Source: Pararhodobacter sp. (GTDB taxonomy: Bacteria; Pseudomonadota; Alphaproteobacteria; Rhodobacterales; Rhodobacteraceae). From it: a stretch of DNA of 64,000 nt. The position numbers and the translations under genes were made by a program. The notes under the pieces were generated by a model. The model made no database searches, was not told the DNA's origin, and was given only the letters and a program-made list of their open reading frames with translations. The first letter of the stretch is position 1. Each line of letters opens with the position of its first letter. The stretch spans positions 124,001 through 188,000 of the forward strand of contig JAFIEK010000003.1 in NCBI GenBank assembly GCA_020832545.1, read 5' to 3'. This document shows, in pieces, positions 35,165-40,022 of this stretch.

Positions 35165-36148
35165 TCACTCGCCCAACATCCATTCGCCCTCCGGGTGAAA
35201 GGCATGGAACGCAAAGGCAAAGGGAATGTCATGGGGCAGATCGCGCCCTTGCCCGTCGCGCACTCGCACGGTTCCCACATCGCGCCCCTCGGCAATGATG
35301 CGGTGGTCGAGCGCCGAGGCCTGCCCCGATGTCCAACTCAGAACCACCCCGGCCTCGCGGATCTCGCCTGCCGCGCGTAGCCGCTCAAAGGTCCAGGCGC
35401 GGTCCTCTACGCGAACCACGCGGGCAAGCGGGTTGATACCATGCGGCGGGTCCTCGCCCTGATACAGGAACGGCCGGGCCGAGGTGTCATAGCCGACATA
35501 CGGGTTCGAGCCATAGGCACGCCGCCATTCGGGCTCATCCATCACCAGCCCGTCGGGGTTGCGATCGCGGAACTCGGCCCAGCTTTCCATCCAACCCGGC
35601 AACTGGGTCAGTCGCGCCCCGGCATGTACGCCCACCACCCCTTCGCCCACGGCTTGCTGCCACCAGCTTAACGTCTCGCGGTCATACATGATCATGTCGG
35701 AATGGCGCAGCTTGCCCGAGACACCAAAGGTATGCGCCACGCCATCCACCCGCGCGTCAAACACCATGGCCGAGTTGCACAGCGGGCAATAGGTGACGGC
35801 AATTGGTAACCCACCCACCACATCGTTCACGATCTCATGCCACATCAGATACCGCACCGGATAGGCGCGCGCGGCCTCGCCCTCGTGCTCATAGGTCAGC
35901 ACCGGCTCGCGGTCATCGAGGCGGGCTTCCTGCGCGGCGGGGATATGCACGGGCGCCCAGATCGCTGGGATACCGTCCTTTGGTGGCCCGCCCGAGATGA
36001 CCTCGGCAAAATCGATGGTCGTGCGTGTGAAATCCGTCTGCGACCATTCGCGCACCCATTGCGCCGGGTCGGCAGCGGCTGAGGCGGCCACAAGAGCGAG
36101 AACCGGCAGGGCGAGCCACGGGGCGGCGAGATGTTTCAGCAGCTTCAT
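35165..36148 (-). CDS. exported DUF3179 protein
   Basis: 327 residues from ATG 36148 (AAGGAGAG upstream) with a signal peptide ('LAAPWLALPVLALVAASAAA'). The body matches DUF3179: 'TYCPLCNSAMVFDARV' with a CPxC motif, 'GVSGKLRHSDMIMYDRETLSWWQ', and 'GYDTSARPFLYQG'. Function unknown; the CPLC pair and periplasmic location suggest metal or thiol chemistry. Last gene of the three-gene operon led by the Cys-repeat P460 protein. Confidence 0.85.
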   Translation of the reverse strand: MKLLKHLAAPWLALPVLALVAASAAADPAQWVREWSQTDFTRTTIDFAEVISGGPPKDGIPAIWAPVHIPAAQEARLDDREPVLTYEHEGEAARAYPVRYLMWHEIVNDVVGGLPIAVTYCPLCNSAMVFDARVDGVAHTFGVSGKLRHSDMIMYDRETLSWWQQAVGEGVVGVHAGARLTQLPGWMESWAEFRDRNPDGLVMDEPEWRRAYGSNPYVGYDTSARPFLYQGEDPPHGINPLARVVRVEDRAWTFERLRAAGEIREAGVVLSWTSGQASALDHRIIAEGRDVGTVRVRDGQGRDLPHDIPFAFAFHAFHPEGEWMLGE

Positions 36149-36159
36149 CAAACTCTCCT

Positions 36160-36654
36160 TCAGTCGCGCATAAGTGCGGTATCGAACTGCCCGTGAGCAG
36201 GCAGGCAACGGGACAGATCAGGCATATGAACGGGCGTGCGCGTAAAGCACAGCGGCACAGAAAACTGCCCGGAGATTCGCGGTGACGGGCCGGACAGATC
36301 CAGAAGCTCGACTATCACTGCGCCTTCGGGGACATCAGACGGCGATACCCAATAATCGCGAAACCCGTCCGGGCGATAGCTGATCCGTGCATCATGGGGC
36401 GCATCGCCCGTGCGCGCGCCGGGCGGCAGGGCCAGTTCCAGCACCAGCCGCGCCTGACCCTGCACCCCCTCGATGCTGACCGCATCGACCGAAGCAAAGC
36501 GCGTGAATCCGGTGCGCGCGCCCTCCAACTGCGCCACAAATTCAATGCTGGCGCCGTCGAACGTGAAGCTGAGCGCACCCTCGGCCACGGCAGGCAGTGG
36601 AGCGGCACAAAGGGCGCTTGCCGCAACCATCGCGCGAAGGGTGGTACGCTCCAT
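36160..36654 (-). CDS. exported protein of unknown function in the P460 operon
   Basis: 164 residues from Met at 36654 with a signal peptide ('AMVAASALCAAPLPAVAEG'). The mature part is beta-rich ('LSFTFDGASIEFVAQLEG', 'EGVQGQARLVLELAL'), with two Cys in 'PLCFTRTPV' and 'LSRCLPA'. No family recognised. It sits 11 bases upstream of the DUF3179 start and 93 bases after the P460 gene, so it probably shares their transcript. Confidence 0.75.
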   Translation of the reverse strand: MERTTLRAMVAASALCAAPLPAVAEGALSFTFDGASIEFVAQLEGARTGFTRFASVDAVSIEGVQGQARLVLELALPPGARTGDAPHDARISYRPDGFRDYWVSPSDVPEGAVIVELLDLSGPSPRISGQFSVPLCFTRTPVHMPDLSRCLPAHGQFDTALMRD

Positions 36655-36747
36655 GTCGTCACCTTGTCCTGCGGGTTCGTCGCGCAAGGCGCGGGGGCCC
36701 GATACGGGCTGCTCGCCCTGCGCTTCGCAGTTGCCGGGGTCCTCAGA

Positions 36748-37854
36748 TCAGTTGCCCATGCGGTATTGCGGCTCCATGAACAGCAGATCATCGGTGTCCG
36801 CACCCGCGCCCATATGACAGGCCGCGCAGAAATACATCCCGTCCGGGTTGGCCCCAAGTGTCCGACCCAACAGCGATCTATCGGGCATGATAGCCGAATA
36901 GATCCAGTCATTGGTGTCAGGGGACAGCCCTGCTTCGGCCTTCTCCATCAGGAACAGCGTTTCCCAAAGGGCCTCACCACTGGCGTTGATACTGAAGGTG
37001 GGCTTGGCGACGATCCCACCAGCCGGCATTTCGCCGATGTCTTCGTAGAGGCCGTAGTGCTCGGCGGCGATTGCGTTTGCGTGGTTGGTCGCGAACCGCT
37101 CGCCATGGGTGAACGAGATATAGGGGGTGGCTGCGAAGTTCGTCCAGTCGGCGAACTCGCGGCCCTCAGACTGGTCAGATTGCGACCATGACGCCAGCAT
37201 CAGGCTGCTTTCGCCACCGGCGGCAGCCTGTTGCTCCATTGCTTCCATGAGGCAGGCATAGAGCGCCTGAAGCTCCTCGTCGCTGACTTCGGGCGGCGCT
37301 GCGGTGGCGGCACAAGGATTGGCAGCGCAGGGGTTCACGGCACAGGGATTGGCCGCGCATGGGTTGGCAGCACACGGGTTAGCCGCGCAGGCCGCTGCGC
37401 AAGGGTTAGCGGCGCAGGCTGCTGCGCAGGGATCGGCTGCACCCGGGTCGGCAGCGCAGGGGGCGCAGGCCGCGCAGGGGTTCGCTGCGGCTTCCTGCAA
37501 TCGCGGAATGTAACATCCGGTTGACGCTCCGCCCCCGGCTGCGCACGGATTGGCCGCGCACGGATCTGCCGCACATGGATTGGCTGCGCAGGGATTGGCC
37601 GCACATGGGTCCGCCGCACAAGGATTGGCAGCACAGGGATTTGCGGCGCACGGGTCCGCCGCACAGGGATTTGCGGCGCAGGGATTTGCGGCGCAGGAGT
37701 TGGCAAAGGCCGCGCCGACAGAAGTAAAGATGATCACTCCCGCCCCACCCAGGGCACCCGCGCCCAAAATCAGCGCCACCGTCAAGACGGTGCTCGAACG
37801 CAGGCCCGCACGCATCGTCGGCTTTCGGCTTTCTTCTCTTGTGAACTGTGGCAT
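36748..37854 (-). CDS. Cys-repeat cytochrome P460-like protein
   Basis: 368 residues; GGGAGG precedes the ATG. A membrane anchor or signal segment (~22-51) is followed by two blocks of a CAA(N/D)P pentapeptide repeat (54-104 and 122-184) holding most of 24 cysteines spaced mainly five apart. The rest (~235-368) resembles cytochrome P460: 'TPYISFTHGERFATNHAN', 'MPAGGIVAKPTFSI', and a c-type haem site CAACH at 343-347. Such a domain would sit in the periplasm and bind haem; the Cys array could bind metal or take oxidative damage. It is divergent from an ECF sigma/NrsF pair, with a matching promoter between. I know no characterised protein of this build. Confidence 0.85.
   Translation of the reverse strand: MPQFTREESRKPTMRAGLRSSTVLTVALILGAGALGGAGVIIFTSVGAAFANSCAANPCAANPCAADPCAANPCAANPCAADPCAANPCAANPCAADPCAANPCAAGGGASTGCYIPRLQEAAANPCAACAPCAADPGAADPCAAACAANPCAAACAANPCAANPCAANPCAVNPCAANPCAATAAPPEVSDEELQALYACLMEAMEQQAAAGGESSLMLASWSQSDQSEGREFADWTNFAATPYISFTHGERFATNHANAIAAEHYGLYEDIGEMPAGGIVAKPTFSINASGEALWETLFLMEKAEAGLSPDTNDWIYSAIMPDRSLLGRTLGANPDGMYFCAACHMGAGADTDDLLFMEPQYRMGN
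37303..37491 (-). repeat. second CAANP-repeat block inside the P460 gene
   Basis: Codes residues 122-184: a less regular array including CAAC, CAADP and two CAAACAANP nine-residue units, then CAANP units (one CAVNP). Unit length is 15 bp where regular. Coding repeat, in frame throughout. Confidence 0.85.
37543..37695 (-). repeat. first CAANP-repeat block inside the P460 gene
   Basis: Codes residues 54-104: ten complete 15-bp units CAA(N/D)P and a partial one. The fourth residue follows N,N,D,N,N,D,N,N,D,N, so a 45-bp (15-residue) higher-order unit is repeated three times. The DNA units are similar but not identical, so the array is old enough to have diverged while its peptide is kept. Confidence 0.9.
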
Positions 37855-37920: not shown

Positions 37921-37947
37921 TTCGTGCCAGCCCCCGCAAGGGTTACA
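37921..37947 (-). promoter_or_regulatory. ECF-type promoter of the P460 operon
   Basis: On the minus strand: TGTAACC, exactly 16 bases, CGAA. This agrees with the GTAACC-N16-CGAA form I recall for Caulobacter SigF promoters. It lies ~67 bases before the P460 start codon. Confidence 0.75.
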
Positions 37948-37966: not shown

Positions 37967-37993
37967 TGTAACCTTTCAGGCTATGGCGGTGAA
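37967..37993 (+). promoter_or_regulatory. ECF-type promoter for the sigma factor gene
   Basis: On the plus strand: TGTAACC, 16 bases, TGAA, one change from the divergent copy. With the other copy it makes a perfect GGTTACA/TGTAACC inverted repeat. Its -10 would lie just inside the first possible start of the sigma gene, favouring a later start at 38025. Confidence 0.55.
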
Positions 37994-38606
37994 TATCTAT
38001 CCAACCGACAAGCGGAAGCGATGGATGGCTGCGACGCGCGATGAGGATGATGAAAGACGGGCGGACTCGCTGGAAGCCCTGATGCGGTCTGTGCAACAGG
38101 GCGATGCGGTTGCTTACCGGGCATTGCTCAACGACGTGGCAGGCCGCATGCGGCGACTGGTGAGGCGGCGCGCGCCGTGGCTGAAGCCCGAGGATATCGA
38201 GGATCTGGTGCAGGATATCCTGCTGTCGCTGCACCAGGCGCGCGGCAGTTGGGACCCGGCGCGGCCCTTCCTGCCCTGGATCGTTGCTATAGCCCGTGCG
38301 CGGCTGGCTGATAACGCCCGCCGCTATGCACGCCGCGCCGCAATTGATCTGGCAACGATGGACCTGGCTGAAACCTTTTGCGACATTCCAACGAATACAG
38401 GAGCAGAAAATGTTGTGAACCTGCTGTCGGTGCGCAAAGTCATGGAAGGGCTAACGCCCAAGGAGCAACGGGCCGTCGAACTGCTGCGCTTGCGTGAGAT
38501 GACGTTGTCAGAGGCCGCCGAGGCCAGCGGATCGACCATTGCCGCGCTGAAGGTGGCGATCCATCGTGCCATGCGCAAGATGAAGGCCACACTCTACAAG
38601 GATTGA
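37983..38606 (+). CDS. ECF RNA polymerase sigma factor (SigF/NrsF-associated type)
   Basis: 207 residues from ATG 37983; ATG 38025 (15th codon) fits better with the promoter that overlaps the start. Region 2 includes 'EDIEDLVQDILLSLHQ' and 'PFLPWIVAIARARLAD'; region 4 has 'LTPKEQRAVELLRLREMTLSEAAEASGSTIAALKVAIHRAMRKM'. No extra C-terminal domain. The next gene is an NrsF-type membrane protein. It probably recognises the TGTAACC-N16-CGAA promoters on either side, switching on itself and the P460 operon. Confidence 0.93.
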   Translation: MAVNIYPTDKRKRWMAATRDEDDERRADSLEALMRSVQQGDAVAYRALLNDVAGRMRRLVRRRAPWLKPEDIEDLVQDILLSLHQARGSWDPARPFLPWIVAIARARLADNARRYARRAAIDLATMDLAETFCDIPTNTGAENVVNLLSVRKVMEGLTPKEQRAVELLRLREMTLSEAAEASGSTIAALKVAIHRAMRKMKATLYKD

Positions 38607-38612
38607 ACTGCC

Positions 38613-39293
38613 GTGACCCAAGGTCAGAAACATACTGAGGCAACCGACACGCTGATCGCCCGGCTTGCGCAAGACGCGCAGCCGCTGCGGCCGCTGGCAC
38701 ATCCGGCGTGGCGTGCGCTGGTCTGGGCTGTGGTCGCGCTGGCCTTCGGGGCGGCGATGGTCTGGGCGATCGGCCCGCGCCCGGATCTGGCTGATCGGCT
38801 GGTGGACGCGCGCTTCATGCTGGAGCAGGGGGCCGCGCTCGCCACCGGGCTGGCCGCCGCCGCTGCGGCGCTGGCGCTGACAGTACCGGGGGCGTCGCCC
38901 CTGTTGCGGCTGTTGCCGGTGGTGCCGGGGGTGCTGTGGATATCAACGCTGTCTATCGGTTGTCTGCGCGACTGGTGGCAGTTTGGCGCTGACGGGCTCC
39001 GCCTCACCCCTGACCCGGCCTGCTTCGCCTATATCGCGCTCATCGGCTCACTGCCCGCGCTGGTGTTGTTTCTGATGCTGCGCCGTGGCGCGCCGCTGGC
39101 CCCGCGCTGGACCATTGCATTGGCAGCCCTCGCGGCAGCAGGGCTGGGCAACGTCGCGCTGCGGTTTTTCCACATGCAGGATGCGGCGCTGATGGTGCTG
39201 GTCTGGCAGGTGGGGTCAGTCGCGATTCTGGCTGTTCTCGCGGGTCTTGGCGGCCGGAAGTTGCTGCCCTGGCCCGCGCGGCCCGCATTCTGA
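38613..39293 (+). CDS. nrsF: NrsF-type (DUF1109) membrane anti-sigma factor
   Basis: 226 residues, GTG start six bases after the sigma stop. About six membrane segments, a short charged N-terminus for sigma binding, and two periplasm-side or membrane-edge cysteines, Cys117 ('SIGCLRDW') and Cys137 ('DPACFAY'). In Caulobacter, NrsF holds SigF inactive and releases it under chromate, cadmium or oxidative stress by way of two cysteines. The same role is inferred here. Confidence 0.85.
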   Translation: MTQGQKHTEATDTLIARLAQDAQPLRPLAHPAWRALVWAVVALAFGAAMVWAIGPRPDLADRLVDARFMLEQGAALATGLAAAAAALALTVPGASPLLRLLPVVPGVLWISTLSIGCLRDWWQFGADGLRLTPDPACFAYIALIGSLPALVLFLMLRRGAPLAPRWTIALAALAAAGLGNVALRFFHMQDAALMVLVWQVGSVAILAVLAGLGGRKLLPWPARPAF

Positions 39294-39308: not shown

Positions 39309-40022
39309 ATGCCGTCATCCGTTCCACCCATCGACCTGTCCGCTCTGTCAGAGGATGACCTGCGCACCTTGCAGTCCGCCGGGTATGAAGTGGCCGAGTG
39401 CGTCCGTGTGCTGCGCAAGGCCAATCTGAATGTGGTCGGCGAGGTGCTGAAAGGTCAGGGCAAGTTCGTACGCCTGACGCATTTCCCGCAGGGCGATGTC
39501 TATGACCGCGAGACCCATGCGCAGTACTACTACCACGCACATCGTAACGGTGAGCACGGTCATTTTCACCTGTTCCTGCGCGCCAGCGGCATGCCCCCGG
39601 GATGCGCCCCGGTGCCAGAAGCTTCCGGGCGCGGCTGGCCGAAGGGAGATCAGGCGCTCTCACATCTGGTGGCCATCTCGATGGACAGGTTCGGCAAACC
39701 CACCGGCATGTTCACCACCAACCGCTGGGTCACCGCCGAGACCTGGTATCCCGGCAAGGATGTCGTCCGCATGCTGCCGCATTTCGCCATCGATCACGCC
39801 TTTCCAAGCTGGCCCACCAACCGCTGGCTCACGGCGATGGTGTGCCTGTTCCGCCCGCAGATCGAGGGTCTGGTGAAGGCGCGCGATGCAGCCCTTGCCG
39901 CCCGGCGCAAGGCGTTTTCTGACCGCGATGTGTTCGAGGATCGTGAATTCGAGGTGCTCAGCGAGATCGATATTGATGTCGAGGCACAGATGACAGCGAT
40001 CGAGCAGGCGCTGGCCCGTTAA
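39309..40022 (+). CDS. conserved hypothetical protein with His-rich core (DUF6969-like)
   Basis: 237 residues, no signal peptide or membrane segment. The core has a dense His/Tyr patch ('THAQYYYHAHRNGEHGHFHLFL', cited here as residues ~74-95) that could bind a metal, followed by conserved Trp-rich stretches 'TNRWVTAETWYPG' and 'PTNRWLTAM'. The C-terminus is a charged helix. AGGAG precedes the ATG, 15 bases after nrsF, so it probably belongs to the sigma-nrsF operon. I believe the family is known only as a DUF. Confidence 0.75.
   Translation: MPSSVPPIDLSALSEDDLRTLQSAGYEVAECVRVLRKANLNVVGEVLKGQGKFVRLTHFPQGDVYDRETHAQYYYHAHRNGEHGHFHLFLRASGMPPGCAPVPEASGRGWPKGDQALSHLVAISMDRFGKPTGMFTTNRWVTAETWYPGKDVVRMLPHFAIDHAFPSWPTNRWLTAMVCLFRPQIEGLVKARDAALAARRKAFSDRDVFEDREFEVLSEIDIDVEAQMTAIEQALAR

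Follow-up and report, generated by a model that had tools for sequence, protein, structure and literature searches.

The described systems closest to the locus presented here are bufferins, CefA peptides, the sigma-F/NrsF response of Caulobacter, and the cytochromes P460 and c'-beta. Bufferins combine an exported cysteine-rich precursor with MNIO, and their clusters are described as containing sigma factors, NrsF, and fusions to cytochrome c and FGE-sulfatase (PMC12452194). CefA is listed in NCBIfam (NF038108) as a 'Cys-every-fifth RiPP peptide', with CAANP-type units. For Caulobacter, the published study (PMC3511200) gives GTAACC-N16-CGAA as the sigma-F site and describes a regulon responding to chromium and cadmium as well as two cysteines of NrsF that matter; cells without sigma-F are stated there to be not more sensitive. 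Cytochromes P460 and c'-beta (PF16694) share one fold and a single CxxCH motif.

We analysed a stretch of 64,000 nucleotides of Pararhodobacter sp. (hereafter the window), in which a haem protein of the P460 fold, also with one CxxCH, carries a long cysteine arm ahead of this domain, an addition to what is known for cytochromes P460 and c'-beta. The features are collected in Table 1. With bufferins (PMC12452194) the system has in common a cysteine-rich precursor (export here being predicted), a sigma factor with NrsF, and cytochrome c and FGE-sulfatase partners; it differs by having DUF6969 in place of MNIO and by a precursor that is a long regular array. The sigma factor/NrsF feature of Buf1 clusters is present at the window in the form of genes and promoter site, and control of the array gene is predicted. 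MNIO (PF05114) was not found in the window genome and was rejected as array maturase on this ground. With CefA the protein shares a cysteine at every fifth residue and CAANP-type units, but it scores 13.2 on NF038108 (cut-off 30) and is fused to a P460 domain. In comparison to the Caulobacter heavy-metal response (PMC3511200), the NrsF family and the site are the same whereas the target here is the arrayed P460. The new point is the pairing of cysteine arrays with DUF6969, a telling neighbour that was overlooked in an earlier sequence-only reading of this DNA.

Table 1. Features of the array locus (positions within the window).
Feature	Position	Strand	Remarks
Cysteine-array cytochrome P460 gene	36748..37854	-	368 aa
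Signal-like segment, residues 1-51	37702..37854	-	Hydrophobic core 24-42; AFA before N52
Array block 1, residues 54-106	37537..37695	-	11 Cys, NND higher order
Linker motif CYIPRL, residues 114-119, holding C114	37498..37515	-	
Array block 2, residues 127-183	37306..37476	-	12 Cys
Cytochrome P460 domain, about residues 190-368	36751..37287	-	
Lys284 (K106 of the 50-row P460 alignment), invariant	37003..37005	-	Aligned with NeP460 Lys70
Haem motif CAACH, residues 343-347	36814..36828	-	
Sigma-F site GTAACC-N16-CGAA, perfect match	37921..37946	-	Ends 66 bases before array start codon
ECF sigma factor	37983..38606	+	Start may be further in
NrsF anti-sigma factor	38613..39293	+	PF06532, 2.5e-28; two Cys
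DUF6969 (PF22308)	39309..40022	+	E 6.7e-82; starts 15 bases past NrsF end; proposed array partner/maturase
175-aa protein, no Pfam family	36160..36687	-	Relatives in 8/80 loci
DUF3179 protein	35165..36208	-	Relatives in 12/80 loci; true start probably further in

The open reading frame has the layout claimed earlier: a signal-like start, an array in two blocks and a C-terminal haem domain with CAACH. The 24 cysteines that had been assigned to the two blocks are reproduced as 23 block cysteines (spanning residues 54-104 and 127-181) plus C114, which belongs to the linker; with C201 ahead of the P460 domain and two cysteines in CAACH the protein holds 27 in total. Exact CAA(N/D)P units number 16. 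In block 1 these follow the order NND NND NND N, as the sequence-only reading had seen, with ten successive cysteine gaps of 5 (the every-fifth spacing of CefA), and the 45-base higher-order unit is picked up by Tandem Repeats Finder with 3.5 copies and a score of 213. The spacing in block 2 is more uneven, with gaps of 3, 4, 5 and 10. The DNA of the units has diverged while the peptide is kept, again as proposed: over 120 unit pairs we counted 355 synonymous against 48 non-synonymous codon differences, the latter being the N/D alternation itself, where single changes to the consensus unit would give 11 synonymous and 34 that are not. A leader similar to the signal-like segment is retained by relatives, and by eye the segment looks as if it would be cleaved. 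In its own genome the array protein has one match (the whole protein), as has the P460 profile, and a plasmid search with the array protein gave no match. An Extensin match was rejected as a low-complexity artefact, and a multihaem cytochrome c was rejected given the single CxxCH.

The C-terminal haem domain is a cytochrome P460. Each of the 50 aligned relatives matches PF16694 (E values up to 1, the lowest 4.8e-11), but taken by itself the window protein stays below the Pfam gathering score (14.8 and 16.7 bits against 27). CxxCH and one Lys are invariant in all 50 rows. This Lys falls on Lys70 of the Nitrosomonas europaea protein NeP460 (hhalign E 2.3e-5, probability 76), which we take to be the haem cross-linking Lys there; the alignment speaks to the position only and not to the cross-link. 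The aligned Lys is thus common to NeP460, whereas the c'-beta protein 7s5o has Met at this position. In a profile search of PDB sequences 7s5o was found at 7e-5, the remaining matches, which include complement inhibitors at 0.03, being weak. The AlphaFold model of the domain (pLDDT 88.7) gives eight Foldseek matches in the PDB at E 0.001 or better, all of them P460 or c'-beta (2je2 8e-5, 7s5o 6e-5, 6hih 2e-4). The P460 likeness that had been read from the sequence therefore holds by family, by the invariant Lys and by predicted fold.

A scan of genome contigs yielded 241 relatives, of which 80 were kept (loci labelled with L-numbers, to which all locus counts out of 80 refer); the scan patterns included array peptides, so that arrayed relatives are favoured. 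Of the 80, 58 carry a P460 domain; 6 or more Cys in 60 aa are found in 56 of them, which is more than expected by chance. The exceptions are L058, with its N-terminus missing, and L019 (5455-6516), in which the array is replaced by an acidic, Cys-free EAEAEGEAE arm while linker and sigma-F site are kept. The linker, as C-x-x-(P/x)-R-(L/I) or similar, also occurs in several array-less P460 relatives. In L057, L081, L128 and L132 a cysteine array is found within a loop of the P460 domain besides the one at the N-terminus.

Arrays are found elsewhere too: on cytochrome c domains of the SoxA/TsdA kind, on a YHS domain, or stand-alone. CAANP arrays are fused to cytochrome c in L044, L063, L072 and L077 (SoxA/TsdA by Pfam for L044 and L072), flanking it on both sides in L063, L072 and L077, and in L044 and L072 a multihaem cytochrome adjoins the fusion gene. 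The deltaproteobacterial array-SoxA fusion of L044 reaches 42.4 bits on NF038108 and so passes its cut-off of 30. In L074 (5974-6849) a cyanobacterial CAAxDP array is fused to a YHS (seleno) domain. It had been stated that no such protein was described. Our literature search indeed found no description of an array-P460 protein, nor a publication under the 'Cys-every-fifth' name, and a search on P460, RiPP and cysteine gave only unrelated work among the matches listed; but the architecture is already widespread, recurring in dozens of relatives, and the kind of repeat is already named in NCBIfam (CefA).

DUF6969 tracks the cysteine array rather than the P460 domain. It lies within the fetched stretch of 36 of the 80 array-protein loci, and is present in L055, L071 and L073 though the array there is not on a P460. 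We further sampled 289 genomes of the window's class (Alphaproteobacteria; labelled with G-numbers). DUF6969 occurs in 62 of them, and the pattern PCAANPC in 18, of which 15 have DUF6969 (Fisher 1e-8). This P460 family was found in 38 genomes, 27 with an arrayed copy and 11 with array-less copies only, and DUF6969 is present in 25 of the 27 against 1 of the 11 (Fisher 1.4e-6; G097 and G206 were classed as arrayed and G034 as array-less on evidence separate from the per-protein judgement). Counted per protein, 25 of 27 arrayed P460 copies reside in DUF6969 genomes, compared with 12 of 23 copies lacking an array (p 0.003); the 12 are paralogues whose genomes contain an array too. In the one array-less exception (L294, in G034) the adjoining DUF6969 and P460 genes both look like remnants, since DUF6969 is without its middle and the P460 match covers 46 of 171 positions. 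The two arrayed-P460 genomes of the sample without DUF6969 (G007 and G124) are both 93% complete.

The neighbourhood of DUF6969 shows the same tendency. Sixty DUF6969 regions were taken, extending up to 8 kb to each side and excluding the window's own region as well as short partial hits. An ORF containing 5 or more PC in 80 aa is found in 29 of these 60 against none of 20 controls (Fisher 2.7e-5), which were hand-picked places in 20 of the same genomes and not random draws. A 4-PC rule gives 35 of 60 against 2 of 20, a second array detector 34 of 60 against 2 of 20, and counting by eye 32 of 60 (after removal of the false hit L115 and addition of four). By eye no array is seen near DUF6969 in the other 28 of the 60 regions, nor within 6 kb of it in Azospirillum lipoferum; given these array-free loci (about half), DUF6969 may work in trans or serve some different function. 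The repeats beside DUF6969 vary (NPCAAK, CGACGAK, SPCGLD, GGNPCAPSAR, CAPKCAPK). On a DUF6969 tree of 111 rows, in which some labels were set by hand, many forks are weak and the label 'none' wrongly takes in L118 and L126 (whose arrays contain no PC), array types are clustered in comparison to shuffled labels, except for Sox (4 rows). No type forms one clade: 17 changes are counted for P460, 18 for stand-alone and 4 for Sox arrays, of which at least 8, 12 and 4, respectively, are forced by starred branches.

Conversely, 45 genomes of array-protein loci were searched for DUF6969 (47 loci submitted; most loci already showing DUF6969 were left out, though L007, L055, L071 and L073 were included), and 31 of the 45 have it. 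The 14 genomes without it comprise the arrayed P460 MAGs L020, L022 and L041, the array-less L019, and ten others including Motiliproteus and Mariprofundaceae, which indicates that an array is not always in need of DUF6969. As some genomes are shared between the 289-genome and 45-genome sets (G016 and G299, which give identical hits, are one instance), the tests are not independent.

Within 80 DUF6969 rows eleven columns are invariant, five of them His (H76, H78, H85, H87 and H119, conserved in 80/80), and this set is probably a metal site, judging from conservation. The predicted structure is of high confidence (pLDDT 97.2), but a comparison with the PDB gave no match at E 0.001 (best 1.5). 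By sequence the PDB returned a single, unconvincing match (E 0.24), NCBIfam models returned none, and a literature search found no publication naming DUF6969. Inspection by eye revealed no signal segment in the members looked at, and the protein would be cytosolic. DUF6969 may be an enzyme or a helper that prepares cysteine-repeat proteins.

Outside the window's class, DUF6969 beside cysteine-repeat peptides is seen in Gammaproteobacteria and on one betaproteobacterial plasmid as well. The latter (L292, 4064-5155, Burkholderia glumae) shows a signal-bearing CAPKCAPK peptide followed directly by DUF6969, in an arsenosugar biosynthesis cluster. In the class of Marinobacterium profundum (Gammaproteobacteria) 22 of 229 genomes have DUF6969, with a Cys-repeat peptide within 1.5 kb in 18 of the 22 by eye (a count without matching controls that includes several short or weak peptides, those of L278, L282, L286 and L288) and in 10 of the 22 by the 5-PC rule. 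The peptide adjoining DUF6969 in L278 (2200-2403) terminates in HGCCGCCGCCGCCGCSGS. The operons of L280-L282 and L284-L288 hold a sulfur transporter, a short SPCGL/SPCSL peptide (with an IDHTRH-type leader), DUF6969 and a rhodanese; likewise, the laboratory strain Sinorhizobium meliloti 2011 (pSymB) and Ciceribacter have a sulfur transporter, a Cys peptide and DUF6969. An FGE-sulfatase relative is present in 17 of the 60 alphaproteobacterial DUF6969 regions but in none of the 20 controls; the one in L026 (4489-5358, minus strand) has a signal-like start. MNIO occurs in 28 of the 62 genomes with DUF6969, yet the two genes lie less than 8 kb apart in G004 only, where one cluster (L161, contig C8, 2980-8657) combines MNIO and DUF6969 with an NrsF relative and a Cys-repeat peptide. 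As both are held by this cluster, DUF6969 need not replace MNIO there.

Concerning regulation, a strict sigma-F site directed to the P460 gene is found in 8 of 16 loci (the window and L002-L016), and a loosely defined site towards either gene in 13 of the 16; the sigma/NrsF pair itself is present in only 14 of the 80 loci. The own genome holds six sigma-F sites against five for a reversed control, hence no excess, and a wider regulon was rejected because the other five sites lie inside or at the very edge of ORFs and look like chance. It is by its position between genes that the site of the array gene stands out. The 175-aa protein is kept beside arrayed P460s in Rhodobacteraceae.

Our main reading, to which we give a probability of about 0.5, is a stress unit of the sigma-F/NrsF type that would resemble bufferins but work without MNIO. 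Stress acting on NrsF would free the ECF sigma factor, which would induce the array gene. In the cytosol DUF6969 would recognise the precursor, which would bear a Sec-type signal, as a cysteine repeat, and would modify or otherwise prepare its cysteines ahead of export. Once beyond the inner membrane, the 23 block cysteines of the flexible array could bind either soft metals or chalcogens such as sulfane sulfur, beside a P460 haem (probably Lys-cross-linked) that would handle reactive nitrogen or similar species. The metal-binding role suggested earlier for the cysteine arm is plausible, with indirect backing from the promoter and the sigma/NrsF pair.

Other explanations share part of this evidence. 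The array might be a carrier of persulfide or thiosulfate, in which sulfane sulfur is loaded by sulfurtransferases and passed to transporters or haem proteins, with DUF6969 loading or unloading it inside the cell. This agrees with the gammaproteobacterial gene order of transporter, peptide, DUF6969 and rhodanese (in the 22 loci, a relative of the YeeE/YedE-type Sulf_transp family, PF04143, is present in 9 and a rhodanese-domain relative in 10, with 8 loci having the two together; Pfam confirmed these on examples), with arrays adjoining PF04143 transporters in Thalassospira, Sinorhizobium and Ciceribacter, and with the arrays fused to SoxA/TsdA cytochrome domains. Neither transporter nor rhodanese lies beside the window array, however, the transporter is found in only 5 of the 60 regions of the window's class, and the sigma/NrsF pair is of the kind that answers chromium and cadmium in Caulobacter; we consider such a carrier unlikely. 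(A literature search found no publication joining YedE, a sulfurtransferase and a cysteine-rich periplasmic partner.) Rather doubtful as well is an array of unmodified cysteines serving as a passive thiol sponge or metallothionein-like buffer, with DUF6969 as a cytosolic chaperone, metal supplier or regulator and not an enzyme. The absence of a recognised enzyme fold in DUF6969 would fit this, as would the 14 of 45 searched genomes without it, but the invariant HxH, HxH, His, Asn, Arg and Asp over 80 diverse members look catalytic or metal-binding. Finally, the Cys-free arm of L019, sitting in the same place, might be taken to indicate that the arm is mainly a flexible spacer keeping the haem domain off the membrane, its cysteines being incidental. 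We regard this as highly improbable, as the cysteines persist despite DNA divergence and in 56 of 58 P460 loci (in a scan favouring arrays); moreover, the search of the L019 genome found no DUF6969, so that in this single case loss of the cysteines goes together with absence of the partner.

Returning to the stress unit with DUF6969 as array partner, a more far-reaching proposal, which we offer tentatively and hold as somewhat doubtful, is that DUF6969 might found a class of peptide-modifying metalloenzymes with a new fold, acting on the cysteines of exported peptides with repeats of many different sequences, across Alpha-, Beta- and Gammaproteobacteria. Arrayed P460s would then be long substrates, that is, haem enzymes with a RiPP domain in cis. 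Overall, DUF6969, an unstudied family, gains a testable role as a partner of cysteine-repeat peptides, a second, MNIO-free route to bufferin-like binders of metal or sulfur is suggested, and such arrays are seen to occur attached to redox haem proteins.
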